Positions 13,738 through 47,756 of a DNA stretch of 64,000 nt are shown one piece after another. Below the pieces are notes generated by a model that did no database searches, had not been told where the DNA came from, and was given only the letters and a program-made list of their open reading frames with translations. The DNA comes from Rhizophlyctis rosea (lineage: Eukaryota; Chytridiomycota; Chytridiomycetes; Rhizophlyctidales; Rhizophlyctidaceae), in assembly GCA_027596075.1 (NCBI GenBank), contig JADGJC010000090.1, positions 68,248 through 132,247 of the forward strand, written 5' to 3'. The translations under genes were made by a program, and so were the position numbers. Positions within the stretch are counted from its first letter, which is position 1. Each line of letters begins with the position of its first letter.

Positions 13738-14914
13738 TCACGCGGCTTTGTCGTCCCTATTGAAGGTTAGAAAATCAGAGGGTGGTAAGATACGGAAGGA
13801 AAGAGCTGAACCAGCTCAACAGCCATAGATGGGAAATATGGAGACATTACGTACTCGTCGTCGCCATCATCATCCGATCCGTATGTTGCGATTAGTTGCG
13901 CTGGCGCGTCGACTGTTGTGTGAAGGTATTTTGCGTTAGGCTGAGAAGTTCAGAAGCGCCACTTGGTGCAAAAAATTCTGATTCCATACCAGTCTTAGCC
14001 TTCTTCGGCGCCGGTCCTGGACAGGGATGAGGAGCATCACAGTGAGTAAGAGTCTTCCCAACGCGTGCGGCATCATGGTTGGCTGTGATTCCAAACATAC
14101 CTTCAGCCGTCATCCGCGTCACCTTCCCGTCCCCGCTTGTTCCTTACGGCAGGACCCGCCGCATCCACACCAGACGATGACGCAGCAGAAGCTGCCGCTT
14201 GTGCGGGTGCTGGGGTACTGAGAGGTGCTGGTGCGGGTGGCTGGAGAGGGTTGGGAGGTGGGATGGGTGTGGGGTTGGGTTGTTGAGGCGGTGTCGGGGA
14301 TTGTTGAGGTGATGAAGCGGGTGTGTTTGTGGAGGAGGAGTCGGGGGTTGCGTATGCTGCGGGTTGGGGGTTTGTGGGTAGGGGTGGTGGTGGTGGAGGA
14401 GGAAGGGAGCATGGGTGGATGGTCTGATGCCCAAGGACGGGCGCCATCGTTTGGTCGTTTGGTGGGGCGGTGGAAGCTGTAAGTGCGAGAAAAGGCTACG
14501 TTTAGTCACGAGCCATGTATTGTTCTGCGGGAAGTGACCCAAGTGTCTGTGTAACAAGCACTACTCACGAGCGGAAGCGGGGGTTGTAGGCTGCGTAGGG
14601 GTGTCGGGAGTGCCGGAGGTGAGGAGACGGGGAACTGGTATGCCGGCAAAAGCGGTATTCAAGACAGCGTGTGGGGACCGCTTCCACCACTCTTCTCTTT
14701 TGATACGTCGTGCTAGAGCGACGGTTGGTGAATAGACTGAGACCCTGACTGGGTCTTTCGCAGATACTGTGACGAGGAAGTCGGTGGAGAGAGCACGGAC
14801 GGCGGGGGAGATTATGTCTTCCGTAAGAGTTTGCCCTGCGAACGGACGAATGACGTCCGTTAGCCCGTCGAAGACTACATACCCACACCCTACGTTTAGT
14901 ACTGAGGCATCCAT
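13738..14914 (-). CDS. P1: paralogue 1 of a disordered nuclear-type protein paired with an exonuclease
   Basis: Five exons (14569-14914, 14123-14476, 13990-14016, 13855-13912, 13738-13756) join in phase and give 267 residues. The first exon is 346 nt, exactly as in copy 2, and encodes the conserved N-terminal domain (VLNVGCGYVVF, IISPAVRALS, VYSPTVALARRI, EEWW). The second opens with the family box near TAPPNDQTMAP and continues as a Pro/Ala/Ser-rich disordered region ending in NKRGRE. The 27-nt third exon encodes PAPKKAKT, like a nuclear localisation signal. The tail is acidic (YGSDDDGDDEDDKAA). The donor of exon 2 is GTGACG. Read-through of it would instead end the protein at a TGA after GDADDG. 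The family is not one I recognise. Its divergent partner is the exonuclease-like gene at 16208, across 1.3 kb. Confidence 0.7.
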
Positions 14915-16207
14915 GATTTGAACCGTCAAAGGTGTTTCAAGGGGGACAATGGTTCAGCTGATGTTATATAGGATGCAGATCGCAGGGGAGGGGCTGCTAC
15001 AGACTTGGCTGGCTGAGCTTGCGGCGCCGATGTACTGGCACGTGAAGAACAACAGCACTGCTGTGCATTCGTTTTCCAGCGATAAGGTCCTCATGATGTG
15101 TGTGAGCAGGGTTCTCCGGTGTATTGGAACTTGTGCATGCCGGCTATTGGGAGATGGTGGCGGGTATTGAAGCCGATGCGTTGGATATTGGCATGCCGCG
15201 AGCAGAACGGGTACTTGGTAGGAAGGCGCGGACTATACGAGGATGACTTATATGACGCGAGGCGCATCAGGTTGAATAAGCATATGGACCCCGAACTTTT
15301 GTTGTGCAAAAGATGTGCCGACGCGTCTGTAATGGTTAAGTCGGAGATACGCACAAAGTTTTCCGTGAAAGAGAATAGGCAAAACAGATATGTTGATTAT
15401 GTATTTGCCAATGTGTATATACAATATGCAAAGAAGACGAAGGTCCCACACTACTGGATGCTTGCTGTTGTGTTGCGTATTTCTGAGCAGTAAAGAGAAG
15501 GGGAAGCATCGTATTAGTGGTCGGCACTACGAGAGAAGAGCCAAAAGACGAAGGAACTCGAATACTTGACCTTGATCAAGTATGACAGGAGGCGAGAAAC
15601 TTGGGAGGAACCCTCACACCAGCACCAGCATTCCTAGTGGCCCCGCGTCTGATCCATTTTCCCACGATAGAACCGCTCCTCAAAGGTAGGTACCCAAACC
15701 ACCAGTGAGGTTTACTGAACTAAAGCAGTGCATCGGTATCAGCGGAGGTTTCACAAGAAAGTGAATGCCTACAGACACTGTCAAGGCGCTTGGTGAGGTG
15801 GGTCTATGAGAGTTCCTCGGGTGGAAGCCTTGTGCCTGAGCGACCAGGAAAAGGGGAGTTGCACTGGTTACTGCTAGCATTGACGCGCATTACGGAGACT
15901 TCCATACTCAAAGGTTAGCAACTTGAAGAACTTATATATCATGTTGTGAGACTGCTGATATCAAGACTTGCGGGTTTCCGCGTCTAGGCTGCGTGTGGAT
16001 ATCCAACTGACATTCTGCATTCTACATATTCCCCAGTATCCCCGCTCGGTACGGCATAAGCACTCTTACCCTCCACCTACGCGACCGACCCAACCCCCAC
16101 CCATCCAGCATTCCTTCATACCCCGCACTCCATCCTCCACTCACAACCATTTTCACCATTCCCTCCTCCCTAATCCTCTACTGATCCCGCCGCCAACCGC
16201 GAGCCCT
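14915..16207. promoter_or_regulatory. Shared divergent intergenic region, copy 1
   Basis: This 1.3 kb region lies between P1 and Exo1 and is related to the same interval in copies 2, 3 and 4. A TATA-like TTATATA at 14964-14970 (TATATAA on the P strand) lies 50 bp upstream of the P1 start. The shared block begins with CTTGACCTTG at 15565-15574 and continues with a CACCAGCATTCC motif, a GGTTTCACAAGAAAGTGAA segment and AAGGCGCTTGG near 15785. The last 200 bp before Exo1 is C/T-rich, as in fungal leaders. No reading frame is conserved between copies, so I read it as regulatory or as a non-coding transcript. Confidence 0.55.
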
Positions 16208-17113
16208 ATGGCCACACCGCCGTTCCCCAGTTCCTGTAAGATATGGGAACACTGCGACCCTATCGTACGACAGCCCTTTCCACCCAACAATGCACCCCTC
16301 TACGGGCTCGCACCTCCGTTCCCTACCGCCGCATACATCACCCATATGCAAATCCCAGTACCCAACGGACGGGCCCGCTTTGGCTACGCCAACGACTACA
16401 TCGACGCCCTCGTGACATCCGACATCAATCACGCCAATAGACTTTTCCACGACCGATTCTATGATCAGAATGACCAGCCGCGATTTTTGAACAGTGGATT
16501 CGATGTGGAGAAGCGGAGCCCAGTGGAGTACGCCACTCCCGCCCTCATTCAAGCCTGCAACGAAGTCGGCGAAGCGGTCGGTTTCCATTGTGCCTCCCTC
16601 AGTGCTGACCAATATCCACACTGGATGTTACACTACATGGCGGATTCCGCCGTGGGCAAGTGGGGTTTCGGTATAGAGGGGGCCATACAAAAGTTGCGGA
16701 ATGTTGGAGTTACGGACCTGGACGGATTCTATCGAGCGGATGATGTGGTGATATACCACTACAGCAGCGTGAGTATCATTGAAACTGTTGATTGATCTGA
16801 TCTGAATCATTACATCTTACCATTTTCCTTGTGCTCCTCATCATAGGTACTGGGCCACACGCACAATCATATGGACATCTCCATGAAGAGGGCATCGAAG
16901 TTCTACCTCGGCCTAAACAAAGCCAAATCCGCCCACGAAATCGGCCAGTACGAGCGACCGCAACTCACTGACAAACAAATCAACTACGCTATGACGGATG
17001 CACAACGGAGTTTGGAGGTTCCAAGAGAGGTCTACAGGCGGATGACTCCTGCGCAGGCGGCGGAGGCGACGAAGTACGCGAAAATCAATAGTTTCTGGAT
17101 GACGAATATGTAA
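16208..17113 (+). CDS. Exo1: DEDDy-type 3'-5' exonuclease-like protein, motif II altered
   Basis: Two exons (16208-16768, 16847-17113) give 275 residues. DnaQ-like superfamily 3'-5' exonucleases of the RNase D/WRN group bind two metal ions with Asp-x-Glu, Asp and a Tyr-x3-Asp pair. Here motif I is SGFDVEKR followed by ALIQAC, and motif III is INYAMTDAQRS. Motif II, GD in the other copies, reads GIEGAIQKLRN, so the metal-binding Asp is Ala. The protein is therefore probably catalytically weak or dead, though the reading frame is intact. The N-terminal part (CKIWEH..., SDINHANRLFHDRFYD) is a family-specific extension. The 267-nt second exon has exactly the same length in copies 1, 2 and 3. The start is the ATG that aligns with copies 2 and 3. 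Confidence 0.75.
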
Positions 17114-18340
17114 GAGGGGAAAGCATCAGGGGAAAGACTTTGAGGAAGTCATTTGTGAATTTTGGGGTTGGATTCTGTACATGAATTTGTTTTTGGAGTT
17201 GATTATATAAATACAAGAGAAGGCACAAGTGCTCCTTCCTTCGGGAAGTTTGAGCTGGTGTCAAGGGTTAAAAAAGTCGTACACCTCGAGTTCCTGCTGT
17301 GCTAAGTCGTGAGTGCTCCCTGCCTTGGTCAATATGCTTCCGCGAGTCGGGTGAGCTTTCGCAACGGAATCACACCTTACTACAGATTTGGCAAACGACA
17401 TCCATGCCAAGAAAACCAGTCCCCTTTTTCACTATGAAAGTATAGAGGCTGGAATACTGCCATGCAGCAAAGTGGGGCAATGACTCGAATTGACATTTCC
17501 CTTTATCTCACCAATGCCAACACAAGCGCGCAGGGTTGGCGCGTGAGATGCAGGTTGGGAACAGCGCTCCGACGGATGTCAGGATTTCAGGTGGGCCTTG
17601 TCAATCAGGGAGAATTCATGGAGGTGACTGATGTCATTCCGAGTTTTGGTTTGAGAGCGTGGGCGGTCAAAAACAGTAATCCTCCCGCGGATCTACTGCG
17701 CGCCATGACGGAGAGCAGCGCTCCTTCACCTTTGTATGCAATAACAGAAAAGATAAAGATCTGGTAAACTTTCGCAGTTTGCTTTCCTCACAGAATGGCG
17801 AACAGGTGTGATACCAGGCGTTATCGCACACAATGCGCTTCTTGCCGTTAGCGCGGCGAACCCAGAAGAGCAGAAAATTGACAAGGGCAGCAGCGAGGAG
17901 AAAGAGATACATGGGGCTTCAATGAAGTTGTGACTTGAAATCAAGTCCAAAAAGTTACTCCACCGCTAATTTACTTTACAGTCAAGTCACAATACGACCC
18001 CCGTGGTATTGCACCCATGGCACGTCTATGGAATATCGACACTTGCCCAAACTTGCGAACGCCTGACAAATTTGCTGCCCTTCCTTTTCTATGTCGGACC
18101 GCTCGTCATTGAAGACCGCACGCCGGACGCCATAGCAATAGACAACGGCGCCGTACACTGCATCCGCATGACTGTCGAAGACGACCACAGATCTTTACTT
18201 TCGGAGGAGAGTCCTCATCCAAATCCTTCCGGAACGACCCTAGCGTCAATAACGGGTCCCAAATATCGCATCCCCCAGACAGTCTCCAACTTTCAGGAGA
18301 CTTGACCGCCTTCCTGGCAACCTCCATGTGAACGGCTATC
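17114..18340. other. Spacer downstream of Exo1
   Basis: A plus-strand frame at 17462-17767 contains GEFMEVTDVIPSFG, faintly like GRGFVDVTNVLPSVR of the P family, but the rest does not align. Minus-strand frames at 17982-18369 have some coding character and could be 3' exons of the gene ending at 18341, but I could not splice them in phase. Otherwise nothing is supportable. Confidence 0.35.
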
Positions 18341-19631
18341 TTAGCCCTCCAGTTCGCCGTCTGATGCATCCCGCAGAGCCTTCGTCGCGCGCGAAACTAC
18401 TGCGCTCCATCTACCGACACCTCCATAATCCGAAACGACCGCACACACAACCCCATCCGCAGCCCAGTCTGGTAAGGATTCCTTGCGGCCTTCCCGGTCA
18501 TCTGACTTTCCTTGACTCTCCATCTTGACAAGAAGACCGAGGATGCGGCCGTAAACATCGCTGTATAGATTGTTGACTTCCGCTTCGGTCTCCTTCTCGA
18601 AAGCTTGGAAAACTAGAATAATGAAATGTATTGGTATACTGATACATACGACCAAAAGCGCTCAATCAGCAGCAACCTCGCCTCCGCTTCCAACTTGCGT
18701 TCCTAACTTCCTATCTTAGTGTGCAGGCGTGGTGTACACATACCTCTTACAAGTCTGTGACATGCATCCAAGCGCGCACCCGATCGTGTGTTTCCCTACG
18801 TTCATCCTCTTCCATCGAGGCAACCGTATCCACGATAGCGCTGCAACCGGGCCCCACAATTTTCAAGAAATTCGAAATATTTCCTTCTTCGGATTCCTCC
18901 TCGGAATCTTCCTCAGAGTCTTCCGTCTCGTCCGCCGTATACGGGATGTACAACGAGATTGCGCGAAGGTGTGCAGAAAGTACAAGTACATCTGCAGCGG
19001 GGTCCGCAGAAGGTGTTGCGGGTACTGCGGTGAGGTTGGGTATTCGAAGCACTTCCGCCTCGAGTTTCTGCAGATCCGTTTCCGCCATATATCGACCGGG
19101 TTCGAACGATTTCCATGTTTTGTCGAAGGGTAGTTGAAATCTCATAGGTCTGAGGAGAACCCAGCTGGGAACATCCTCACCGCATGGCACAACAGAGCTC
19201 TCTTGCTGACAAACGTAATTAACTAACTTAGACAGAGATTCGTCGTCATAGCAACTATCCGTTCCCAGCCGTTGATGTACCGGGAAATGAAGTCTACGGA
19301 ACTCTGCACTTTGCTTTTCCAACCAAGCGATAGAGGTCAATCCTAACGACGGGGCAGCGGAATATGAGGGAATGGGCAGGACTGTCAGATCGTACAACTT
19401 TTTGATGGCAACAGTGTTACATAGCAGGACGACGGCAGTGTGGTAGTTGTTGTTCCGTTTGGCGGAAGAAGGAGCAGATGTGGAAACGATGGAACCCGGC
19501 CCAAGAAGCGGGTCTGGAAGACACACTCTGATGATTTGACCCTGCGTCGGCGGACTGGGATCGCCTTCTCGGTGGTTATGAGTAATGCGGTTGTGGTCAA
19601 CGAGCAGGCAGGTTTCGAGCGTATCTGCCAT
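18341..19631 (-). CDS. Hypothetical acidic protein
   Basis: Two exons (18751-19631, 18341-18638) join in phase at a GTAAGA donor and a CAG acceptor and give 392 residues. The N-terminal part contains LETCLLVDHNRITHNHR and VLLCNTVAIKKLYDL. The centre has VPCGEDVPSWVLLRPMRFQLPFD. A strongly acidic run of Asp/Glu and Ser (near ETEDSEEDSEEESEEGN) precedes a hydrophobic segment. The C-terminal exon is mixed and contains an alpha-helical EKETEAEVNNLYSDVYGRI. No family is recognised. It is alone between copies 1 and 2 of the P-Exo module and has no counterpart between the other copies, so it is probably not part of the duplicated unit. Confidence 0.55.
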
Positions 19632-20359
19632 CTGCACTCCTCTTTAGTAAAATCCTCTGAAAGCCATATCTAGCTTGGAAGAGTGTTACTGGGTTTGCTG
19701 TCTGTATGTTTGTGTGTGTGTCCTGCCTGGTGGCGCAGTGATCCACTGATTGATGACTTGATGGTTTGCTGAATTGACTTTGCGCTGGTTGCTGGTGAGC
19801 GGAGCGAACCATACGAATCACCACTGCAGCAGCTCTGCTGCGTAGGAGTGATTGGGAGGTGCCTTATTCCCAAACAATTTTGCTATCACTTTCAGAGTAC
19901 CATCCCGCCTTCACGCGGGCCACAGTTTTGTTGAGTCGGTTGTACAGGCTGCTATATGGGGCAAATCACGCCACGCTGGTACGCTGGTGTGACGGTTCTC
20001 GGTAACGTGAAGTGCCATTTCATTTGGGTTCGGTATCTGGTGGTCGACAATACGGCGTAATTGCTGTTTGTTGGAGATTCATGACTAATACGCCCAACGA
20101 ATCGTTGATGAAGGAAGATGAGAAGAGCCAAAACGTCTGAGACTCCTATCGAGATATCTAAGCAATTCGCCTCAAAACGCGGCGACGGAAAGAAAAAAAA
20201 AAAAAAAAAAAAGCAAAAACACATCCATCTAAAGTCAATCCCCGTCCTATGCGATAAACGAAAAGAAATGCCAGAACCGAACTATAACAGGTCTAAGCAA
20301 AAGAAACAGAATGTTATCTACTCTACAGCTTGATCTATGTTTGTCCCACCCTTCTCTAT
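19632..20359. other. Spacer with a poly-A tract
   Basis: This interval separates the start of the acidic protein gene from the end of P2. A run of 20 A at 20193-20212 is the only obvious feature. It could be a trace of a reverse-transcribed insertion or simple slippage. No reading frame is worth calling. Confidence 0.4.
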
Positions 20360-21743
20360 CTAAATACACATGCAAAATCCTAGGCGCCGTCCTCTTCGCC
20401 CGCTCCCTCCGTCGCGCTGAATTGGAATTGGAGAAGAGGTTAGCGTGTGTTGGTGGAGTTTCAGGGCGACTGATGCAGGGATGGGAATGGCAAATACATA
20501 TCTGTTGTCCGTTCCGAGGTCAGCAGATACGGTATCACCTTCATCTGTAGAGAAACACGCACTTGAGTTAAGCGCGTGGATTTGTGTGATGTGATATGTT
20601 GCAAGCGAGAGATGTTCCTTACCTATCTTCGGCTTCTTCGGCGCCGGATCATCCGCCCCGCTCGCTCCTATGATTGGACAAGCGTCGTTCATTAGTGCCG
20701 GAATCTATCAATGAGAAGAGTTGGAAATGCCGTACCTCCCGCATCATCCTCTCTTTCACTGCCCACTTTATCGCTCCCATCCCCACTCCCCTCCCCATCC
20801 CCGTCCCTCTTCCGCTTCTGCCCTACGCTCGGTTCCGCGCCAGCAGGAGCGTTGCTTGGTGCAACTGCCGGTTCAGCAGCTGGTGCTGCTTGCGCGGAGG
20901 CGACGGGCGTGGTTGTGGTGGAGGTTGGTGAGAGATGGTTAGGAGGTGCTGGTGCGGGAGCCGCATGGGAGGGTTGTGCGGCTGGTGTTGCTGTTGCCGA
21001 AGAAGGAGGACGGGGGTTTGCGGGGCCGGGCGCCTGCGCGGGGTTTGCGTTTGAGGAGGGCGTTGCCGTGAGGGTTTGGGAGGCGGGCACAGAGTTGTGG
21101 GTTTGGGGAGGGAGAAGGAAGGGAGGGTTTGGTGTTGGGGTGTTGTTTGGAGTGGTGGTGTTGGGGGTGGTGGTTGGGGGGGGGGGGGGGGGGGGGTGGG
21201 CCGCTGGTTGGGTTGTCGAGGTCATGGGAAGGGGAGGAGGAAGAGCGGAGGGGTGGATAGTGCGGAGGCCGTAGGTTGGTGCTAGGATTTCGTTGTTTGG
21301 TGGTGCTGTGAGAGCTGCGAAAGGAACGTTTGAAGTCAGTTCTACATGACAACTTGCCGTGAAAAGCTTCGCATATGGCAGCTGTAAGGTCACTTACGAG
21401 TTCTGGCGGTGGCGGTTGGAGGAGGAGGACGGTGCGGGGTTGTTGGGATGCGAAGAGTAAAGAGAGCGTGTTGAAAAGCTGCCTGTAACGTCGCATTGGT
21501 TCCGAATTGCCAATGCGCGCTGTTTCGGATTTGCTGAGCTACCGCGGCTGTTGGGGTGAAGATTGTAAGGTCGACGGGGTTGCCGGTTGCGTGGATGATG
21601 ACCTTGATGCGTGGAAAACCGTTGAGAAGGGCCGGAGAGATAAGGAATCTACGTACTTCTTCCTTATCTACAGTGCGGACTGACGGAAGGACGTTGGTCA
21701 CGTCGACAAACCCCCTTCCGAGAGTTAAGTACGAAGGGTTCAT
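20360..21743 (-). CDS. P2: paralogue 2 of the disordered nuclear-type protein family
   Basis: Exons are 21398-21743, 20736-21314, 20623-20667, 20498-20544 and from 20416 downwards. The N-terminal domain is intact (YLTLGRGFVDVTNVLPSVR, FLISPALLNGFP, FTPTAAVAQQI, HWQFG). Exon 2 has the PPNNEILAP box, a Pro run encoded by 21 consecutive G on the plus strand, and ends with GQKRKRDGDGEG. Exon 3 encodes DPAPKKPKI, like a nuclear localisation signal. With the visible splice sites, exon 4 is one base out of register with exon 5. The last 37 nt would then be read as a basic tail (RDGGSGRRGRRLG, stop at 20360) instead of the acidic tail ATEGAGEEDGA ending at 20380. A small indel or an unseen splice site explains this. 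The partner is Exo2 at 23213. Confidence 0.65.
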
Positions 21744-23212
21744 GGTTATGACGTGAAGTCTCAAGGGACATGGTGCACCTGACTCTTTTATAAAGTTGCA
21801 AATCGCACCCCGTTGGAGTGGATATTTTGTTTGACTGGGCCCCCTCGGCTGTGTCTGTATGGCAAATTTCCAGTTGTCTTACCAGTGGTAACGTCTTGAC
21901 TGCTCCTCGTTATGCGCCCGACCTGTCATGGCACAACTCAATTGTTGTTGGGAAATGGTGGCTCCTAGTGAAAGTGGAACATCGGCGAGCATATGACAGG
22001 AACTGGGTGGTGGGGGCGCGGACCGAGTGTGATGCATTATGTGACGCGTTACCATGCAGAACAAGGACCCTGAGTTTGCTTTGAACGTGAGAAGAGGTCG
22101 TGAGATGCTCACGACGGCACAAATAACAGCTACACGAGATTGATAATATGGGAGAAGCTTGACGACCAATTACCGGGTCGACACTCGTATATTCTACACG
22201 CTTTATATGTACAGAAGGCAATCCGCAGCCAAAGTTATGTACAAGATGCAAGAAGACACGTCACTAGGCTCGGTATGGATATTTAAAAGGCACTGGCAAT
22301 GTTCACAGCGAGGAAAGTTAGTATCTATCGCAAAACAATGCATATGACAGCAAAAGAGCACGACAACTTGACCTTGTCAGAGCAAAAAGAAGATATGGTG
22401 TGTCATCGAGGGACTCTGCACTCGTCACCAGCATCCCTTGGCAGCCCAAAGACAGAGTCCTCCCCACCCTTTGATTGGGCCCCCACGGACGGGTACCCAG
22501 TCCGCCGTAGAAAGCCCTCACAAAGCGCAACTCACAATCAGCATAGCCTTCACAAAAAGGGAGGCTACAGGCATAGACAAGGTGCTTGGATCGAAGTGTG
22601 TTGAGAAGAGTCCCGATCGAATCTTGGTTGTTGAAGTTGATGGCGGTGGTGGAATAGGGAAAGAATTAGGCCAAGACCGTTGGCGACTTCGCTTTCGAGA
22701 GTTCGCAGAGGGTTGATTGACGCGTGGCGCTACATGTGGCGCATGCAACGTTACCTAAGATTACCCAGCCACAAGCCACGGATTAGCAAGCGGGTCCTCA
22801 TCAGAAACGCGTCCCATCGAACTTCCAACTCTCCTCTCCAGCTACCTCCATTTTGACACATGTCAAAGTAAGAACCACTAGGTGAGCATCCCATAACAGA
22901 CACTTGACGGTCCACTGTTAGCAATTGCTTGGTCATTTGCGCTGAAACTGCAATGGACGTGTACTAAGCTTTTCACTTTACTTGCCAATCCATAGCAGGA
23001 CCACCATATCTCCAGCGGCCACAACAGAAGTATACACCAACTGAGCGGTTTCCTAGCAGACGCCGTGCTAAGGCAGAATCCCATCGTAGCAGCAATAGTT
23101 ATCACTATCACAGCTGGTGTAGACGGCTACCTCTGGACGTCCCTTCACCACCATCGCTCCAAAGACATACCCAACTCCCTTCTTACACCGTCATCGCAAC
23201 TCACTTCCAAAA
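21744..23212. promoter_or_regulatory. Shared divergent intergenic region, copy 2
   Basis: The interval between P2 and Exo2 repeats the layout of copy 1. A TATA element TTTTATA (TATAAAA on the P strand) at 21786-21792 lies 43 bp upstream of the P2 start. The shared block starts with CTTGACCTTG at 22367-22376, includes GGGTACCCAGTCCGC at 22491-22505 and a CTTCACAAAAAG motif, and ends near TCCCGATCG at 22619. The last 100 bp before Exo2 is C-rich. No reading frame is conserved with the other copies. Confidence 0.55.
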
Positions 23213-24139
23213 ATGGCCGCCCAAGCACCGGCTTTCCCAAGAGCCGCCATGCTCTGGGAGCATGTGAAGCATCCCTTCAGCCAAAAGCCCTTCCCTTCGC
23301 CCGACATCCCCGCAACAGGTCGCCCGCCCAACTTCACCGTACGGCCCTACCTCAAAGTCCGCCACGTCCCACTTCAAACATCCGTCCTCCAACACACCGG
23401 CAGGGCAACATACGGCTACCTCAACGACTACATTCATGCTACGGTGACTTCGGACAAGGAGCAGGCGAACAGACTCTTTCACGACACATTCTACGATGCG
23501 AATGACAATCCTCGGTTCGACCTTGCCGGCTTTGACGTCGAACAACGAGGTGGCGACGCATACCCCATGCCTGCGTTAATTCAGGCGTGCAATCCCCTTG
23601 GAGAGGCAGTGGCGTACCACTGCCCGACCGTCTCGGCCCGTCAATACCCGGAGTGGCTCCTTCACCTCGTCGCCGATGCTGCGATCGCCAAGGTAGGGTT
23701 TGGTATTCAGGGGGATGTGGTGAAGCTTCGCAACATCGGAATCTCGGACTTGTAGCGGTTCATTCGTACCGATGACATCGTGACGTATCACCAAAGCGCG
23801 GTAAGTTTTGGCAATTTGATTTAGTCTCTCATAAGTCCTTCCGGGTCAACTGATCGCATCTTCCTCCTCCAGGTCCTCGATCACACCTTAACCGATCTCG
23901 ATTTCGGAATGAACGACGCTGCCCAGATCTACCTCGGCGTACCGAAGGCTCCGAAAGCGAAGAGGACGGGAGGGTGGGAGAATCCGGATTTGACGGATAA
24001 GCAGATTGACTACGCGATTACGGATGCGCAGCAGTCGATGGAGGTCGTGAGGAGGGTGGAAACTCAGTTGACGCTCGCGGAGAGGGAGGAGGCGTATGAG
24101 TATGCGGCGATTAATGGGCATTGGATGTGTCATCATTAG
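23213..24139 (+). pseudogene. Exo2: DEDDy 3'-5' exonuclease-like gene with one in-frame TAG
   Basis: Two exons (23213-23800, 23873-24139) have the same lengths as intact copy 3 (588 and 267 nt). The frame is open except for a TAG at 23753-23755, between motif II and the exon end. Copies 1, 3 and 4 have Asp or Glu at this site, so GAG to TAG is the simplest change. All metal-binding motifs are otherwise kept: AGFDVEQR with ALIQAC, GIQGDVVKLRN, and IDYAITDAQQS. Without read-through the protein would stop after motif II and lose motif III. Everything downstream, including the splice sites, is well preserved, so the loss is recent, or the stop is sometimes read through, or the sequence has an error. 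Called a pseudogene on present evidence. Confidence 0.7.
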
Positions 24140-24764
24140 AAGCATAGGGCGGGAAGGAGTCATTTTGCATTTCGGAACATTGAATTTGGTGGCTTTTGGG
24201 GGCGTTTGACCTTGCCGTTGGTTTTTGTGTCGGAGAACTTTCTTGTATACATTTGATTTTGTTCTGAGTTTTGTTAATGTATTTGCTGCACATATCCTCC
24301 TCCCCTTCGGGGTCGTAGTTGAGGTGGTGTTAGCTTTCAGTTATGTATAAGTGGTTCCCTCTCTTGATATCCCTGGTTGCGGATGATGTGCATTGCCGTT
24401 CCTTGAGCAACATTCCCTCCGATACATTCCGAAAAACAACGAAAAACGCCATGTGTTTTTCACAGATTATTCGTCCTTTCCTGTTGTTTGACATACATAC
24501 ATTACATCCATTGAGCAACTAAGACTTCTCACTGACCGATGGGCAGTATGAAGCAGAGATCAACCCAGTGACTGCTTGGTCGCGTTGACTTGACAATGAT
24601 CTGCGCCCATTCGCGCCCCATTTAGTCCATTTCAAATCTGATCTAAATCATTGGATTCAGCTTCGCTTTGTGGATGAAACGAACGGATCATAACCTGGTG
24701 GGAGAATCACACATGTCACGATTCGATAAATGTATGCCGGACATCAGCTCTTAGCTTGCGCATG

Positions 24765-25040
24765 TTTATGAGCGAACAGCGGATGGTTTGCTTCGGCGGT
24801 GGTGTAGCTACTGTTTCCAGTCCTCGGCGCCGATGTGGACTCCAAAACCCCATTTCTTTTTTCTTTGCACCAGAACCAGTAATGTGAATCTCCGAACGCG
24901 AACATCGAATGGTTTGTCTTGACGCTGGTGCAGCTGACTGTTTCAGTTCAGTTCCCTTTGTGGCATCTCGATTCTGAAACCCCATTTCCTTTTTCAAGAA
25001 GAAGACCTGTAATGTGATGTTTTGCCCAGCCTGCTTTGTT
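24765..25040. repeat. Tandem repeat, about 125 bp unit, two to three decayed copies
   Basis: Two successive blocks share GCGAACA-CG-ATGGTTTG, GGTG-AGCT-ACTGTTTC and AAACCCCATTTC-TTTTT in the same order, about 123-126 bp apart. On the minus strand this shows as a peptide repeat (KKEMGF ... QTIRCS twice). A third partial copy ends near 25040 with GTAATGTGATGTTTTGC. A dispersed copy of the CCCCATTTC to TGTTTTGC segment lies at about 26125-26195. Confidence 0.6.
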
Positions 25041-26124
25041 CATTCGGTCAAATTTGCGAAATCATGATGGCGCTGCAGGAATGTTTGGAGCAGTTGGTGT
25101 CCCTTGTGTTTTGTACGTGCTGTGAACTTTCGTATCCTGGATGATGTGATCAGGAAGGACGCCGGATAGCCATGTTTGATATGGCCTTGGTGATATAAAA
25201 TACTTCTTTGAACAGCTTCTTTTTCTTTGCGTGAAAAACGTCTTTGAACCAGGGCTTTATGGAAGTGTGTCCATCGCTGCAGGACTTATGACAGTCTCAA
25301 AAGAATCACCCAGTGCGCGCAGGTGGATGTGTGGAATAACTCACAGCCCGCTGCCGCCTTGTCACGGCCCTTTATTTGTCTCGTAAAGGTGCTCCAAGCA
25401 GACTCTGGGGTTTGAGAATTGTGAAATGCTTGAGTATTAACTGGGCCAGCTGAGGCGACCCGAGGGCGGAAATTGAACTTGAGACAAAGAAAAAATCAAC
25501 ACCCCAATATGATGGGCTTTGACATATCGCCAATTGCTGCGAATCATTATTCACAACCATGCGTCTCCCTGCTGTGGAGGACCATCCTACATGTGCAGCT
25601 GAATGCCAGTCCCTATCACATACCCCGAGTCAATAGGCACAAAAAAACCGGTCACAATGTCAGGAACCTTGAGAACAACTATCTAGTAATGCCGAAAGGC
25701 TCCCATAACTCCCATGCATCACAGGGGTTTCCACATACAAATAGATTGTGACCTACTTTCATTGCCGTCCTTTACCGTTACTCGGCAGGCACCCAGTACA
25801 TCAGTGACCAATTTGCACCCGTCATGTGATCAAGTTTCCCGACCACGACTATCTACGGATAAGAGATCGAACAAGTTCAGTCAACCCAACGACCAACTGT
25901 GGACGCTGCGCTAGAAATGACCTGCGTTTCATTGGAATTCTTATGCAAATACTCGCTTGAGAATTGTTAGGTGAAACTGAAGTGGGGTCAGTTCACGGAT
26001 GGAATGAGGCATTAATTGCACTTCAAAGGGAAGAGACAGATATCTGGATATTCATCGTTATCCCGACCTAGTGATTGATCTTAATCGCGCTCGTGTGGAG
26101 ATGGTTTCTCAACCCCTTGGCGAT

Positions 26125-26195
26125 TTGAACGCCAAAACCCCATTTCGTTTTTCGTAGGCAGGATCGGTAGTGTGGTGTTTTGCGTGGCCTGCGGT
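26125..26195. repeat. Dispersed partial copy of the 24.8 kb repeat
   Basis: The order AAAACCCCATTTCGTTTTTC, then GGTAGTGTGGTGTTTTGC and a GCCTGC motif matches the right end of the tandem repeat at 24.9-25.04 kb, 1.1 kb away in the same orientation. Confidence 0.45.
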
Positions 26196-28087: not shown

Positions 28088-29664
28088 TCAAACGGTACCC
28101 GCTTCGTTTTCGTCTTCGTCCGATCTGCGTTTGTGACACACAGTGAGTTATTTTGCAAAGATATTGCCAATATCGAACGTAAAGAAAATGACGCGCGAAA
28201 TGAATGAAGACACTTACTCGCCATAGTCCGCTAGGAGGGCGAAACCGTCGCCTGTGAGATTGCGAGTGCGTTAGTGTATGACTTGATGTGATGCGTGATC
28301 GTCAATGGTGCAAGATGATTCTTACCCAATTTGACTTTCTTCGGCGACGGCGACGCTGTCTATGGGTCATCAGAGATGAATTAGTCAGGATACACGTGAG
28401 CGAAAGAACGGCAAGAAAGGGTGGGGAGATGATACGTACCATCAGCTCCATCCTGCCCCTCTTCACCCTCATTCCCCACCTCACTCCCACCCGCATCCCT
28501 CTTCCTCTTCGTCTCCCGACTAGCAGCATCTCCTCCCTCTTCCCCATCAACTCCCCCATCAACCCGCTCCTTACTCTTCTTCTTCTTCACAACTCCACCC
28601 TTCTTCCCTTCATCCCCACCACCCTCCGCATCGCCCTCATCCTCACTCTCACTCTCAACCCTCTTCCGCTTCTCTCCACTGACAGGCCCAGCCTCAGCAG
28701 CTGGCGGCGAGACACTGCCATTGGCGGATGAGGAGTTGGGAGTGGAGGCAGCGGAGGGGGAGGATGCGGGCGGTGGAGCGGGGTTGGGAGGTGGTGGAGA
28801 GGGGGCCAGGAGTTTCGATGGCGGGGGCGGAGGAGCTGGAGTGTTCGACGCGTTCGGCGCCGAGGACGGAGGAGGTTGCGAGGGAGGTTGGGCGGGGGCG
28901 GAAAGAGAGAGAGAGGGAGGGGCGAGTGTGGGTTGTGGGAGGAGGTTTGGGGGCTGTTGTGGGGGTGCGGGTGTCGCGTTCGCTGTAGGGTTTGTTGCTG
29001 GGTTTTGCGAGGCGTTTGGGGAGGGCGGTTGAGGTTGGGGAGGGAGGGGAAGTGGTGGTGTTGGAATGGGCGTGTTGGAGGGAGTGGTGGAGGTCGAGGA
29101 CGCCGGTGTTGGGTATGGGTTTTGTGATAGGGTTGTAGGGAGAGGGAGGAGAGGGGGAAGGGTGGGGTGGTGGAGGGTGCGCCGACCTTGCGTCGGGATG
29201 AGCATCTCGTTGTTGGGGGGAATTGTCAAAGCTGTGACGAGAAAGAATAGTAAATGATATGCCATCGTTGGTCCCGTGAAAGATTTCTGAATTGAAAGGG
29301 GTGGAACCACTCACGTGTGGTTGGGTTTGCCGTGGGTATCGTAGGATGTTGGCGCGGTCGTGAAAACACCGGTCGAAAGGTGGTGGCCGGTGTGAAGAAA
29401 GGTTGGAGGGCAACGTCAGACGAGTGGGTTCCAATACTTTTCGGAAATGATTTGCTGGGCAATCACTTCCGTCGGCACGAAGATGCTGATATTGTGGGGG
29501 GGAAAGTTTCCTATCATAACATGGACATCGTCGGGATGGGCCGCGCGGATGGTAGGGGAGACGAGGTGCCGTAATACCCTCGGCACCCCGAAACGGTGAA
29601 CTGAACCATTAATATGGTCCACTTCAATGAAACCCGAGTTTGCGAATAGTTGTGCAGTGTTCAT
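28088..29664 (-). pseudogene. P3: paralogue 3 of the disordered protein family, frameshifted in exon 1
   Basis: Exons are 29315-29664, 28440-29231, 28326-28355, 28218-28251 and 28088-28124. Exons 2-5 keep phase: the PPNNEMLIP box, a very long Pro/Ser/Ala/Lys/Glu-rich middle with KRKR motifs, the PSPKKVKL nuclear-signal-like exon and an acidic tail (ESDEDENEAGTV). Exon 1 is 350 nt, one base over register. The conserved N-terminal domain reads well to EKYWN, then the frame meets TGA. The adjacent frame continues the family sequence (SSDVALQPFFTPATTF). A one-base insertion near 29415-29425 therefore breaks the gene. Translated as it stands, it would give only 82 residues of the N-terminal domain. 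The last exon is 37 nt, as in P2 and P4. The partner Exo3 is intact. Confidence 0.7.
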
Positions 29665-31064
29665 TTTGTGACGTGAATTGTTTCAAGGGGGGCATAGTGC
29701 ACCTGACTTTTTATAGCATTGCAAATTGCACCCCTCTTGGGTGGCTATTCGGACTGGGCCGCAGGAGAATTATTTGCATGCGGCCTGGAAGAGGCGCACT
29801 GCGTTCGTCCCAGTGGTATAGGAAAGGGCGCGGTATGACCCATTGTGCGGTTCGAAAAGAACTGGTGGCGAGAATGCGAGCCGATGTGTTGGTCAGTACT
29901 GTCAGTTCAGTTCAAGGTACAGCAACTGGGGAGAGAGGCGCGGAGTGGATGGCGGGTGACAGGACGCGTCTTTGGGTGTTTGAAGAGACTATGGACCCTG
30001 TGTTTTGCCTTGATAGTAGAGTGGAGAGGAAACGACATAGAGTGTTCACCAAAGAGAAGTGTTTTGATAATGAGATATGGTCTAGCACAGTCGAACAACC
30101 TCATACTTTATATATTACTAGCTATGTATATACAAAATGCAATAAAGGAAGCCGTCACCAGTATTGGGTTTTGAGAAAGAATGTCCTGTCCTTGGTCGCA
30201 AGAGAAAAAGTGAGGAACTAGAGTCGGTTACATTTCGAGAGCGACGAAAAGTTATGAATCGAGCACTTCACCTTGTTGTCAGATACTGCGTCGCCTTTGG
30301 TCAAAGGAATCTCACCTATCACCAGCATTCCTTTATGGCCATGACACACAGAAGGACTTTGAAAAGTGGTCAGCTTCCAACACCGACGGGTACGCAGTCC
30401 GCAGGGAGGGACTCTGCCACAGTTCACATCCGAACCGGCGTAGCTTTCACAAAAAGTAGATGCTACAGGCACGTAAGGCGCTTGGATCAGGGTGTGTTGG
30501 TAGATTCCCGATCGTGGAAGTGGTCGTTGTTGAGGTTGGTGTTGACGTTGCTGTTGGTGGTGGGGAGGGAAAAGGAGGGGAAGAGTGGGAAGTGCCAACT
30601 TCGCTTTGGGACTTCATCGGCTGTGGATCGCGAGGGTTGTGGCGCAATGTGGCTAACCGATTGTTGCAAGCCATTGCGCTTACCTAAGCAGCCGCCACGG
30701 GCAATCACCAACAGCGAGGAGCGTTGGTGAGGACGCGACTTCCTATTCCTCCTCTTTTCTGAATTCCTTGGCATTCCGACAACACCAAAAGTACACAACA
30801 ACAGGTGAGCTTCCACGTCTTTTCAACCCATTCCATTACACTGCTAGTCGATACATCACATACTTCCGGAATTCCCCAATTTGTGGATACTTACTAACTT
30901 TCCAATCGATCTTTGGTCAGGTGCACATATCTACCGTGGAGCATCACAGACATAAGAGCGACCACCTCCCAGCGACCCATAGCCCATCACCACAACCCTT
31001 TAATCACCACTCACCCCTCCCTCCACACCCATCTCTCACCCATCACATCTTCTCCCCACCATCA
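29665..31064. promoter_or_regulatory. Shared divergent intergenic region, copy 3
   Basis: The P-side TATA element (CTATAAAAA on the minus strand) lies at 29708-29715, 44 bp from the P3 start, after a leader resembling copies 2 and 4 (GTGACGTGAATTGTTTCAAG). The shared block runs from CTTCACCTTG at 30266-30275 through CACCAGCATTCC, GGGTACGCAGTCCGC at 30388-30402 and CTTTCACAAAAAGTAG to TCCCGATCG near 30514. The last 110 bp before Exo3 is C/A-rich. Confidence 0.55.
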
Positions 31065-32009
31065 ATGGCTCAAGCCCCAGCATTCCCTCCCCAATGCAAA
31101 TTGTGGGAGCGGGAACCGCCTTTCACCCGCAAACCATTCCCACCAGCCAACGCCGCCCCGGTCGGTAAAGGCCCGACCCACACAGTCGACGCCTACTGCG
31201 ACAACATCGACGTGCCGCTACAAACTTCCACTCTCCAACCGCCGCATACCGGACGGGCAACATATGGTTACAATCAGGATCATATCGAGGGGACAGTCAC
31301 CACTGACATCGCACAAGCAAATCGCCTATTCCACTCCAAATTCTACGACAACAACGGGGTCCCACGCTTCAGTCGTTGCGGCTTTGATATTGAGCCGCGC
31401 GGCAGTCCGGGTTACCTCATGCCAGCACTAATACAGGCAGTCAACGAGGTTGGGGAGGGCGTTGTCTTCCATTGCCCCACCCTCTCCGCAAGACAGTACC
31501 CCGACTGGCTTCTCTTCTTGATCGCCGACCCCAACATCCACAAATGGGGCTTTGGCCCGCAAAACGATGTCGTCATGCTGAGGAATGTTGGTGTGACGGA
31601 GATTGAAGGGTTCATGAGGTGCGATGATATCGTGCTTTCCCATCAGAAAGCTGTACGTATTCGTTTTTTCTTCTTCTTTTCCTGCTGGCAAACTCTTCTT
31701 CGTATCTTCTCCTAACTCCCTTCCTATCTTCCTTACATTCAGGTGCTGGGTAACCTCCCCAACCATACGGGGGCAAACATCAAAATGCACGACGCGGCCC
31801 AAATCAACCTGGGGGTGCCAAAGGGAAAAGGGGCGAAGAAATGGGAGAGGGCTCATTTGACTGACCCGATGGTGGAATATGCGTTAACAGACGCACAGCA
31901 GTCCGTGCAGATTCCGAAGCAGGTTGAGGCGCTGATGAGCCCGGTGCAGATTGCGGAAGCATACAAGTTCGCCAGAATGAATTCCCACTGGCTTTGGAGT
32001 CAGCGCTGA
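31065..32009 (+). CDS. Exo3: intact DEDDy 3'-5' exonuclease-like protein
   Basis: Two exons (31065-31652, 31743-32009) give 284 residues. Motif I is CGFDIEPR followed by ALIQAV. Motif II is GPQNDVVMLRN, within the KWGFG...L pattern typical of RNase D/WRN-type nucleases. Motif III is VEYALTDAQQS with the Tyr and Asp of DEDDy enzymes. All four acidic ligands and the Tyr are present, so it may remove nucleotides from 3' ends of RNA or DNA; which one cannot be told. The N-terminal 95 residues (CKLWERE, TGRATYGY, ANRLFHSKFYD) are specific to this family. No signal peptide or helicase domain is present. Of the five copies this is the best candidate for an active enzyme with its own upstream region, although its P partner is frameshifted. 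Confidence 0.8.
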
Positions 32010-33535: not shown

Positions 33536-35065
33536 TCATACGGCCGTCTCGGCGTCGTCTGTGCGAACGTCTCTACATTCAGGACGGAGGTTTAGCCATG
33601 GAGAAGGACATGGCGCATCAAACGCGAAAACAAACAAAACGTCACAGGGAGTAAATGATGAAAACACGTACCCTTCCGCCGACCCAGATGCAGTGGCACA
33701 ATCAAGTCCATTGTCTGTGGAATGCAATGCAGATTCGTCAGTGTATTTTTGGGACATGATCTGCAAGGTGGGCATCACTGAACCTTACCTAGCTTAGTCC
33801 TCTTTGCCGTCGGTCCTGTTGACGAGTAGAATCCCGGTGGATGAGTTTTCGGAAATCGTGCGTGGACAAAAAGACCAAGTTGGGGGCCCATTACTTACCA
33901 CCAGCAGTCTCATCTTCTCCCTCCACTCCATCCGCAAGAGTCCCATCCGCAGCCCCGTCCTCCTCAACCTTCTTTCGTTTGACGCCACTAACAGAGCTAG
34001 CGGCCGCGGGGGTCGGAGAACCGTTGGATGAATCGGGGGATAGGGCGGGGGCGTCTGCGAAGGCGGGTGTAGCGGGAGCGGACGGAGGTGACGTGTTCGG
34101 GGGGGTATATTTGGGGAGAGGGGTTGGAGGAGCCGAGGAGGAGGCCGGGACGGGTGGTGCTGGTAAAGGAGGGTTGGGATGCTGTTGTTGTGGTGCGGAA
34201 GGAGCACTTGTTGAGGCCGTCGTTGCCGGAATTTGCGAGGGGCTGATGGCCGGTGGTTGGGGATGAGGAGGGTGAGGGAGAAGAGATAGAGGGGCTGAGG
34301 AGGGGGCAGAGGCGGGTGGTGCCGGATGGATGGGGGTAGGGGTTTGTTGGGCAGGCGCGGGTAGAGCGTTTGTTGTTGGGTTTTGTGAAGAGCTTGATGC
34401 GGGTGCTTGGGGGTTGGGAAGGGCGGGGAGGGGTGGTGTTGGGTTCGAGGTAATGTTAGGGGTAGCGGCGGTTGAGGATGCGGGGGTGGGGTACGCTGAT
34501 TGTACCGTCGCATGGACAGGGATGGCGGGAGGGGTGGAGAGGGAGGAGGGGTGTAGCATCCGGCGGCCGTGTGATGGTGCTACCCATTCGTTATTCGGCG
34601 GCACGGTGAGAGCTGTTGTTATGAAGAAGATTGTTAATCGTTTGTTGCCAAGTGTTTGGAGAAGTACAAGAGAGTGGTGGAAGTTGAAAACTTACGAGTA
34701 TTGGCAGTCGCGGTCGGCTCACCTGGGCGCTGAGGACGTCGCGGGGTGTCGATATTACAAGTAGCATGCGAGAAGAGAGGACGAAGAACGAGGTTCGGGG
34801 AGCACGGACGATGTGGTTGGGTGGGGTCATACCGCCAGTATTCATCAGCAATTATTTGTTGAGCGACGGCGGAAGAGGGGGTTGCTATGCTAATATTGTA
34901 GGGTGGTTTTTTGCCCACCCTACAAGAAATTTGAGGGTGAGAGTTGCGAAGAGCCGGAGCGACGAGGTGGGCTAACACATTCTCTTCCGAATGATTACGC
35001 ACTGGTGCTTGCGCACCATTCACGACAATGAACGTCTTCCCTAAGTATAGATAGGGAGTTGACAT
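33536..35065 (-). CDS. P4: intact paralogue of the disordered nuclear-type protein family
   Basis: Five exons (34696-35065, 33899-34612, 33789-33815, 33672-33714, 33536-33572) join in phase and give 396 residues. The N-terminal domain reads YLYLGKTFIVVNG, LVAPALRNSHP, YNISIATPSSAVAQQII and DEYWR. Exon 2 opens with PPNNEWVAP and continues as a Pro/Ala/Ser/Thr-rich disordered region ending in GVKRKKVEED. The 27-nt exon 3 encodes PTAKRTKL, like a nuclear localisation signal. The end is acidic (DVRTDDAETAV). The alternation of a folded N-terminus, a disordered middle, a basic box and an acidic tail is the same in all full copies. This suggests a nuclear protein that binds nucleic acid or basic partners; that is inference. 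Its divergent Exo partner is destroyed. Confidence 0.72.
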
Positions 35066-36058
35066 TGTGACGCGAATTGCTTCAAGGGGGACATGAATCA
35101 CCTGGCATTATATAGGAATGGGAGTTGCACCCCTTTGCAGTGGCTATGTGAATTGACTGGGCCGATCCGGGTATGTCGTGCAGGGGGCATAGCAGGATCG
35201 CATCGTGGATATTGCATCCGTCTCAGTGTCAGAGCGAAGGGCGCAGTGAGGAGACTCGTCATGGGGCGTGAAAGCAACTGCTGGCAGGATATTCTGGTTG
35301 TAGAAGGCTGAGTTTTTGGTAAGGGGGCGTAGAGTACGTGCGCTGGCGTTATGTGACGCGTCTTTGTGAGTGGTCAGTACAACACGGACCCTCGCGTTTA
35401 ATATCAGGAAACCAGACATAGCAGGATTTGAGCGAACGAATGAGGCAGAGCGGTGCTAGCCAACCTCGGCATTGATATATTCACAACTTATATAGTACAT
35501 GATGCGAAAACAGAATCGTCCCTGACGCTTGCTGAAGATATTCAAATTGTCCTGCCCATGGTCACAAGGAAAGGAGTTAATATCTATGGCGACCCGTATG
35601 TGGCAAAGTGGCAAGACTTGACTACTTGACCTTGTTCTGAAAGTGCTTCGTATTTGAGTCAAGAGCATCTCACCATCACCAGCATTCCTTGCGGCCATCT
35701 CAGCTATGAAGAAGGGGGAACGACTAGCGGTCAGAGTCTCCCACCGACGGGTACCCAGTCCGCAGTGAAAAGACTCCTCCGAAAGTCACGTCCCAACCGG
35801 CGGGGCTTCACAAAAAGTGAATACCACAGGCAAACGCAAGACGCTTGGATCACGGTGTGTTGAGAGATTCTCGATCGTACTGTTGGTGTCGAGGTCGAAG
35901 GTGAGGAGTGTGGGAAGAAGAAGCAGGAAAGGCCCTCTTCGCTTTCGGGTTGGAGGTAAGTCCGCTGATGCATCAGATCGGCGCCGATCTGTGGCGTAGC
36001 GTGGCAAATTGATTGCTCGACGCCACAAATTACCTAATCGCGCTGGACGTGAATGGAC
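35066..36058. promoter_or_regulatory. Intergenic region of copy 4, joined directly to the middle of Exo4
   Basis: The P-side is normal: TTATATA (TATATAA on the P strand) at 35108-35114, 43 bp from the P4 start. The shared block runs from CTTGACCTTG at 35625-35634 through GGGTACCCAGTCCGC at 35749-35763 and GCTTCACAAAAAGTGAA to TCTCGATCG near 35877. About 150 bp later, after a TTACCTAA motif also seen in copies 2 and 3, the sequence passes straight into the middle of the exonuclease coding region. The Exo-side promoter, leader and start are deleted. Confidence 0.55.
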
Positions 36059-36646
36059 TCAATGAAGGAGGTCGGTGAAGCCGTAGGCTTCCACTGTGCA
36101 TCTCTCTCCGCCCAACAATACCCAGAGTGGTTATTCCACTTTATCGCGGACCCGGCCATCGACAAGTGCGGATTCGGGATCGACGGGGATGTCGTTAAAC
36201 TCCGCAACATCGGCGTCACTGATTTGGAGGGATTCATCAGAGCGGATGATATTTGCATTTATCATCAGAAGGAGGTAAGATTCATCAATCAGAGCATTGC
36301 TTGTCAAACTACCGTTCGATTTTCAGTACACATAAGCTGGGTTTTTCCTTTCCTCACAACAGGTGCTCGGAAACACGATCGTGGACTCCGACTTCGGCTG
36401 GGAAAGGCCGCACCCATCTACCTCGGCTGTCCTAAGGCTACATCCGTCCACCCGAAGACGAAGTATGAAAGAAGGATGTTGACCGACGCGCAGATTGATT
36501 ACTTGATCACAGACGCTCAACAGTCTTTGCAGTGCGTGAAGCAATATGAAGCACAGATGACGGCAGCGGAGGTGGCAGAGGCACACAAATACGCGGCGGA
36601 AACCTCTATTTGGATGTCGCACTGTTCGGGGGCGTGGGGAGTTTAG
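36059..36646 (+). pseudogene. Exo4: 5'-truncated, frameshifted exonuclease-like gene
   Basis: Homology starts inside exon 1 at KEVGEAVGFHCASLS, so motif I (FDxE) and everything before it are gone. Motif II is kept (GIDGDVVKLRN). The intron is 36275-36362 with good splice sites. Exon 2 begins VLGNTIVDSDFGW in the expected frame. One base is then missing near 36405, and the family sequence continues in another frame (APIYLGCPK, then IDYLITDAQQS with motif III). The unspliced sequence is open from exon 1 through the intron to the end by chance. With no motif I and a frameshift this cannot be an active nuclease. Its stop (36644-36646) overlaps the stop of P5 on the other strand. Confidence 0.75.
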
Positions 36647-36969
36647 GAGGTTTGGCTTGAGAGGATGAGGGTGTGCAGGTTTGCAACTGCGTGGGTGAAC
36701 AACGGGCGGAGAGTCTGGTTGGTGGAATGTAGATTCCAATAGTCTTCATTGACTATTCGTTGTGCGATTGCGAATGAAGCTGTGTGTGTAATAATGTTGT
36801 GGGGCGCCTCTGTGCCCAACATAATGGCCAGCTCTCGCGGACATTGGTTTCTAAGGGTGGGAGACACCACGTGCGCCAATACCCGCTGATTCCCATAAGT
36901 ATGGACAGACGGGTCGGCCCCTCTAATGAGAACTATCCCTCTACCTATGTGTAGATACGCGGGGTTCAT
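36643..36969 (-). pseudogene. P5: N-terminal domain only of the P family
   Basis: A single open frame of 108 residues matches only exon 1 of the other P genes (YLHIGRGIVLIRG, VVSPTLRNQCP, SFAIAQRIVNEDYW). It ends at a TAA where homology to exon 1 runs out. The disordered middle, nuclear-signal exon and acidic tail are absent, and no donor site leads to them. Its stop overlaps the Exo4 stop, and its ATG (36967-36969) overlaps the Exo5 ATG within one CATG. It could still encode a stand-alone N-terminal domain, but it has no promoter space of its own, so it is called a remnant. Confidence 0.6.
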
Positions 36970-37905
36970 GATTGTATCCAAGCTATGGGAGAACGACTGT
37001 CCCGCCTCCCGCAACGCTCTTCCGCCGCTCACCGCTCGCCCAGTAGGAAGAGGGCCGGATCATACCGTCGAGACATACTGCACAACACATCAAGTCCCAC
37101 TCCAACCCTCAAACCTCCCAATCCCACACACCGGCCGGACCACGTATGGATACACCAACGTCTACATAGACACCACCGCAACATCTGATGTTGGTCAAGC
37201 GGATCGCAAGTGCTACTCCCTCTTCTATGATGCTAACGACCAGCCCCGCTTCAATATGGCCGGGTTCGACTGTGAACCCCGTGGAGACTCGTCGTACCGG
37301 ATGCCGGCAACGATTCAGTGTTGCAATCTCCTCGGGGAAGGAATTGTATTTCATTGCCCTACACTGTCTGCACGTCAATACCCGCCTTGGCTGTTGACAC
37401 TCATTGCGGACCCGAGGATTGGGAAAAGGGGGTTTGGAGTGCAAAGGGACATCACCATGCTACGAAATGTCGGCGTAACGGATATTCAAGGGTTCTTCCG
37501 AGCAGACGATTTGGTCATATACCATCTTACTCAGGTACAGTTTCTTTCGTTGTTTTTGCTGTTCGGGATCGAGTACAGCGACTGACATGCTTTTTCCTCC
37601 CCAACCCTCACAAATTCCAGGTCCTTGGCATTCCACACCCACACCCGAACATCAAAATGGAACTTGCGGCACCGCGATACCTGGGCGTCAACAAGGGCAG
37701 CTACAAGAAGGGAAAGTGGGAACGCAAGAAACTGAACAACGCCATGATTGACTACGCTATTACCGATGCGCAACAGAGTGTCGAGATTCCCCGCCAAGTG
37801 GCTGCTCAAATGACGCCTGCTCAAGCGGATGAAGCCTTTAAGTACGCCGCGCTCAACTCAATTTGGTTGACACATCAGTATGGAGCCGGCGAACCAGGGT
37901 CTTAG
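36968..37905 (+). CDS. Exo5: DEDDy 3'-5' exonuclease-like protein lacking its own upstream region
   Basis: Two exons (36968-37534, 37621-37905) give 283 residues. All motifs are kept: AGFDCEPR followed by ATIQCC, GVQRDITMLRN, and IDYAITDAQQS. The family extension is present from SKLWEND through GRTTYGY. The normal first ten residues are missing. The frame begins at an ATG that overlaps the start of the P5 remnant, so the 1.3 kb intergenic region seen in copies 1-3 has been deleted. An in-frame ATG at 36926 would add 14 residues but lies inside P5. The C-terminus is 6 residues longer (QYGAGEPGS) than in Exo3. Expression would need a promoter inside P5 or Exo4. Confidence 0.7.
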
Positions 37906-47402: not shown

Positions 47403-47756
47403 CTCCGGTTACTGGTCAGGTGAGGTCCATTGAACAGGGAACTTGATCTTCTTCACCGTTCATGGAAACTCTCTTTTCTGATGCCTCTCATCGTTTCTTC
47501 AAGTTGATCTCCGTGCAAGGTTATACACTTCCTGATGGCCCAAATTGGCGCGATCCGGTCGGGTCTTCATGTGGATTCTTATCGGGATGGGGTAAGACAG
47601 ATGTGCGACGCTAACGGCGTCCAAGTGTAATGTAGACTTGGCGATGGTTAGTACAGAGCAAGTGGCACGATGGTCGAGTTCCGATTGCATTGCCACCATT
47701 GTAGGTTCTTACATTCGGTAGCAATCTCGCAATGAACTTTAGGTGCTGCGTGTTTG

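Follow-up and report, generated by a model that had tools for sequence, protein, structure and literature searches.

What holds together a pair of genes that the chytrid Rhizophlyctis rosea (genome 44 Mb, 634 contigs) has multiplied as a unit, one (P) for a disordered, nuclear-type protein and the other (Exo) for a protein with the sequence of a DEDDy 3'-5' exonuclease? The window analysed here is a stretch of 64,000 nucleotides, positions 68,248 to 132,247 of contig JADGJC010000090.1 (C625:68248-132247), in which P and Exo form units numbered 1 to 5; two extra pairs on the same contig, left of the window, are units A and B. Alignment of the gaps between P and Exo revealed a conserved block of ~300 nt with a well-folded core of ~185 nt, element E, which was absent from an earlier note on this DNA. 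We tentatively propose, with confidence somewhat short of even, that the array is a ribonucleoprotein locus peculiar to the R. rosea lineage and made up of E RNA, a P protein resembling RNA recognition motif (RRM) proteins and the DEDDy exonuclease Exo.

By compensatory pairing beyond shuffled controls, E has the conserved fold of a structured RNA. The RNAalifold consensus fold of six minus-strand copies reached -55.2 kcal/mol, compared with -29.9 +/- 4.2 kcal/mol in 150 column-shuffled alignments, none of which was as low (z score -6.0, and -7.1 for the core; plus strand -4.1 and -4.8). Both sides had changed in 13 of 71 pairs, a number that none of 500 shuffles reached (5.8 +/- 1.7), and a nine-row covariance-model alignment, which was fitted to the model and leans towards structure, gave 28 of 54 such pairs against 10.9 in shuffles. 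Folded singly, the copies were mildly better than shuffles, with the minus strand favoured in six of eight. E RNA is probably encoded on the minus strand, whose fold holds 52 G.U and 7 A.C cells, compared with 22 and 13 in a fold optimised for the plus strand; eight of nine copies have a run of at least four T, as for RNA polymerase III (Pol III), between -17 and +9 relative to the 3' border. A coding origin was rejected, no frame being open across all eight copies. We regard E as a candidate new RNA family, even should the proteins be bystanders.

The tally stands at eight firm copies and a ninth, weak one on contig C218, with five copies lying between P and Exo. A sequence profile matched units 1 to 4 and A and not B, and an 18-base core of E recurs on C45, C442 and C534, where DNA search and pairwise comparison identified solo copies of ~297 bases with neither P nor Exo found beside them; when the E sequences of unit 2, unit A and C218 served as DNA queries, no further solo copy came up. 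A covariance model built from six copies, with units 1 and A held out, recovered both (56.8 bits, E-value 4e-12, and 34.5 bits, E-value 1e-6). Bit scores from a sequence-only model were lower (39.1 and 27.9 bits), while its E-value for unit A was below that of the covariance model, and it did not list C218. The C218 match, between the C218 genes, is weak (11.2 bits, E-value 0.4, covariance model); its alignment exchanges the hairpin CAC-UUUUU-GUG for GCGC-UUUUU-GCG, which backs the match, and 112 nt of the stretch (L040:2069-2180) recur at 91% as a partial copy (L040:5085-5196) immediately before the Exo of that contig. Weak covariance-model hits in the viral contigs L085-L087 (best E-value 0.0034, over 36 nt around the query 18-mer) were put down to chance, as was one in L031 (E-value 0.06), which lies in an open frame read by inspection as sorting-nexin-like. 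Near the solo copy on C442, L065 carries at ~294-503 a ~80-bp repeat, 85% identical.

The units are arranged as follows.

P1, 13990..14914, minus strand: gene model with exons 14569-14914, 14101-14476 (in-frame TGA near the exon end) and 13990-14016.
E1, 15552..15850, minus strand: unit 1 gap, model core 15617-15800; nhmmer 1.7e-16, and the covariance-model match given above, outside the training set.
Exo1, 16208..17113, plus strand: exons 16208-16768 and 16847-17113; motif II Asp replaced by Ala.
P2, 20380..21743, minus strand: exons 21398-21743, 20736-21314, 20623-20667, 20498-20544 (donor uncertain) and 20380-20416.
E2, 22350..22649, minus strand: unit 2 gap, core 22419-22598; gap alignment, fold, profile and covariance model.
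Exo2, 23213..24139, plus strand: exons 23213-23800 and 23873-24139; in-frame TAG.
P3, 28088..29664, minus strand: exons 29315-29664 (out of frame), 28440-29231, 28326-28355, 28218-28251 and 28088-28124.
E3, 30249..30548, minus strand: unit 3 gap, core 30313-30494; gap alignment, fold, covariation, profile and covariance model.
Exo3, 31065..32009, plus strand: exons 31065-31652 and 31743-32009; intact, DEDDy residues complete, identical to HDV00_012486.
P4, 33536..35065, minus strand: exons 34696-35065, 33899-34612, 33789-33815, 33672-33714 and 33536-33572; intact, 396 aa.
E4, 35608..35906, minus strand: unit 4 gap, core 35671-35857; gap alignment, fold, covariation, profile and covariance model.
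Exo4, 36053..36646, plus strand: remnant lacking about the first 125 residues; spliced like its counterparts, it goes out of frame in exon 2.
P5, 36649..36970, minus strand: exon 1 only.
Exo5, 36968..37905, plus strand: exons 36968-37534 and 37621-37905; open frame intact, without gap or E.
Pair A, C625:44890-47511, left of the window: its Exo at 46708-47511.
Pair B, C625:55493-57846, inverted, left of the window: its Exo at 55493-56369, with TAA stops.

These gene models agree with the five units of minus-strand P and plus-strand Exo in the earlier note and bear out the exon lengths it gave (346 nt for P exon 1 in copies 1 and 2, 37 nt for the last P exon in copies 2-4 and 267 nt for Exo exon 2 in copies 1-3). 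Identity to Exo3 is 49% for Exo1, 55% for Exo2 and 58% for Exo5, and the P domains of the other four copies share 28-41% with that of P4, so the five-unit array is not due to chance. Five working units are not supported, however: Exo1, Exo2, Exo4, P1 and P3 carry lesions, P5 is reduced to its first exon, and in none of the five units are P and Exo both clearly intact. Exo3 and P4 are intact, and so is the open frame of Exo5. P1 reaches its TGA ahead of its last exons, the modelled exon 4 of P2 puts the last exon in a frame different from that of P4, which makes the intactness of P2 uncertain, and the start codons of P5 and Exo5 overlap, leaving unit 5 without a gap. Among public proteins, HDV00_012487 (396 aa) equals the P4 model, HDV00_012489 is Exo5 annotated with an earlier start, and P0003 (Exo2) lacks the residues around the TAG. 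Single-base indels could be assembly errors. Between units 1 and 2 the minus strand holds a 298-aa open frame with an acidic stretch (18747-19643) and a sub-threshold Pfam match to IER (19.2 bits, cut-off 22.6), and between units 2 and 3 short direct repeats occur around AAACCCCATTTC (24831-26192; families D5 and D7).

The view that the pair is kept as a unit was upheld beyond the window, where the array proved to extend further than the five units first described, to two more C625 pairs and a C218 locus. An Exo3 search of the genome gave 24 matching stretches, eight of them members of this clade (five in the window, two elsewhere on C625 and one on C218), all eight near a P; the P4 domain gave seven matches, all on C625 and every one near an Exo, the weakest being pair B (E-value 0.53 with the P4 domain, 4e-10 with a profile built without pair B). 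On C218 one Exo and two P-like genes, both near it, share a common strand, so that an obligatorily divergent arrangement is not supported. Because C625 P-domain profiles score the C218 P-like gene at E-values of just 0.013 and 0.0005, we consider it a remote relative; searched in turn, it matched both copies on C218, a single copy on C625 and, weakly, C51 (E-value 0.54), this last match being left out of the linkage counts. PF01612, the family profile of WRN-type exonucleases, also matched 24 stretches of the genome, which lie mostly elsewhere; the PF01612 genes other than Exo form a different set, and neither P nor E was found in the ~3-kb loci of the best 8 of these 24 stretches and of five remote Exo3 matches, some of which coincide. 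Several PF01612 matches cluster (three stretches on C36, four on C47, two on C442), perhaps a separate family expansion.

By sequence, Exo belongs with the DEDDy 3'-5' exonucleases of the WRN/EXD2 type, in keeping with the earlier assignment: the DEDDy motifs are present and its profile matches EXD2 and the WRN exonuclease. FDxE, GD and YAxTDA motifs mark 3'-5' exonucleases of the RNase D/WRN group. D108, E110, Y242 and D246 are invariant in all four aligned Exo copies, and the motif II Asp is present in three (Ala in Exo1). Exo3 scores 24.0 bits against PF01612 (curated cut-off 23.6) and Exo2 exceeds the cut-off in the genome family search; no match was obtained for Exo1, which with Exo3 made up the two copies tested. 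Exo3, P1 and P2 had no NCBIfam match, and in viral contigs 31 stretches fitted the Exo pattern, none of which was confirmed.

P is a probable RNA-binding protein, judging from its predicted structure, and its earlier description as a nuclear, nucleic-acid-binding type fits what we found. The domain is predicted to fold as beta-alpha-beta-beta-alpha-beta, with its best PDB structure matches largely RRMs, and inspection of the sequence finds a long Pro/Ala/Ser-rich tail, basic stretches resembling nuclear-localisation signals and an acidic end. We call P RRM-like, and not an RRM member, because the domains of P1, P2 and P4 gave no Pfam RRM match up to an E-value of 1. The P profile reached at best an E-value of 1.1 against PDB sequences, and a P model found nothing at 0.001 or better among viral structures. 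Among 5.8 billion proteins, searched through shared 5-residue words, by which remoter relatives may escape, no relative of Exo (single query and profile) or of P was found outside R. rosea. Literature searches found no published account of the P/Exo/E locus, and we know of no described system that pairs a nuclease with a P-type protein.

Constraint differs among the three parts. Identity among the E copies of units 1-4 is 49-72% (six pairs; 72% between E3 and E4) and rises to 81% for each of the pairs E3/C45 and E4/C534, while E of unit A shares 46-53% with every other copy and E of unit 1 49-53%. Exo codon positions 1 and 2 are 60-69% identical and position 3, at 31-39%, is saturated (10 pairs), from which we conclude that Exo was long under selection; Exo introns are 42-51% identical (six pairs) and P positions 1 and 2 33-56% (15 pairs). 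E identity thus exceeds that of Exo third positions, and of the 10 unit pairs that allow the comparison it was above that of P positions 1 and 2 in eight, equal in one and below in one. On these figures selection has clearly acted on E in units 2-4 and at the solo sites, and less on P.

That an RNA is encoded together with a nuclear protein of RRM-like type and a nuclease of a kind that trims RNA or DNA suggests a ribonucleoprotein in which P would hold E and Exo would act on E or on its targets. In the mechanism we propose, E would be transcribed, P would bind it in the nucleus, and Exo would trim, mature or destroy E, or act on RNA or DNA that E brings to it, with solo E genes elsewhere possibly supplying E RNA in trans. 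A wider claim, which is possible and which we hold more doubtfully, is that R. rosea has an undescribed eukaryotic system in which a dedicated RNA family duplicates as one module together with the RRM-like protein that partners it and a DEDDy exonuclease of its own, with solo RNAs acting in trans. The E subtypes (E3/C45 and E4/C534) may each correspond to certain P/Exo units, which would fit a self-recognition, silencing or conflict system, and a role in defence or conflict, of the toxin/antidote kind included, would be conceivable. Two features of the sequence are at odds with a Pol III-like origin of E. Branch-point-like and CAG signals occur 21-60 nt past E in four of nine copies, and beyond the E 3' end lies a TATA-bearing stretch (~30110-30150 in unit 3, with equivalents left of E), which is shared between units, partly present at solo E and a misfit with minus-strand transcription.

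Those same signals would suit an E whose main role is regulatory, at the level of DNA or pre-mRNA, as would its position between divergent genes and the GTAA donor-like sites that precede it in units 2-4; E would then be either a bidirectional promoter or an intron in the leader transcript of P or Exo. The compensatory pair changes and conserved fold, the solo copies with no P or Exo found beside them and a TATA-like sequence that P has of its own near its ATG (by inspection) make this decidedly unlikely. The solo copies fit E as an independent structured RNA gene family, around which a P/Exo pair was co-duplicated by historical accident and is now decaying, as do the better general conservation of E than of P and the lesions in most P and Exo copies of the window. 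We nevertheless think this unlikely, if a serious contender, given the long selection on Exo and the weakly scoring E-like stretch that accompanies the much-diverged C218 genes, by which the P/Exo/E association may be old.

Tandem amplification, decay and the fast evolution of P would also suit a selfish or conflict system, a killer/antidote pair or mobile element in which the exonuclease damages and P and/or E restrain, and DEDDy exonucleases are carried by some retroelements, as one report describes (PMC5408684). Against such a system, which we judge very unlikely, no inverted repeats of at least 30 nt were found in 13000-38500, clade Exo and P occur on two contigs only (the weak C51 match aside), and no listed open frame resembled a reverse transcriptase or transposase by inspection, with no dedicated search made. 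A transposon is disfavoured by the lack of inverted repeats of that length and by the two contigs, yet E is dispersed at three solo sites. Lastly, E could be a diverged classical RNA, RNase P RNA or another, missed by Rfam models, and a genome search for RNase P RNA that found nothing, though it scored just 15 of 2965 candidates, leaves some room for this. Rfam, however, gave E3 no match among 4227 families up to an E-value of 10; at the solo loci, all three, nothing up to 5 fell on E (two sub-threshold matches lie outside it), L040/L041 gave no match up to 1, and over 13000-39000 nothing reached gathering score; RNase MRP RNA sits elsewhere (C607:127868-128147, 103.8 bits), and E has eight firm copies, all of which makes a classical RNA extremely improbable.

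If E is indeed made, bound by P and processed by Exo, the locus would give an early-diverging fungus a nuclear RNA-protein machine of a new kind, one that makes it possible to test whether nucleases of the WRN/EXD2 type can be devoted to a single RNA; were it a conflict system, its decaying copies would record its history. With RNase P, RNase MRP and signal recognition particle (SRP) RNAs, E shares a length of ~200-300 nt, a long closing stem with inner hairpins and possibly a Pol III-like 3' T run, and it differs in having no Rfam match and in being multi-copy, with five copies set between P and Exo. RRM proteins with disordered tails, of the ALYREF/THOC4, PABP or hnRNP type, resemble P in its predicted fold, whereas P lacks a Pfam RRM match, clear RNP1 aromatics (by inspection) and detected sequence relatives outside R. 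rosea. The DEDDy open reading frames of bdelloid retroelements are likewise exonucleases away from their usual host-gene context, but those (PMC5408684) lie inside LTR or Penelope-like elements, whereas Exo adjoins a structured RNA and the gene of an RRM-like protein, and inverted repeats were looked for without success. Also close are the WRN exonuclease and EXD2 (PF01612), with both of which the Exo motifs FDxE, GxG...D and YAxTDA align; Exo differs from them in being a protein of ~280 aa with an N-terminal part of ~100 aa outside these matches, in the loss of the motif II Asp from Exo1 and in having been duplicated jointly with P.

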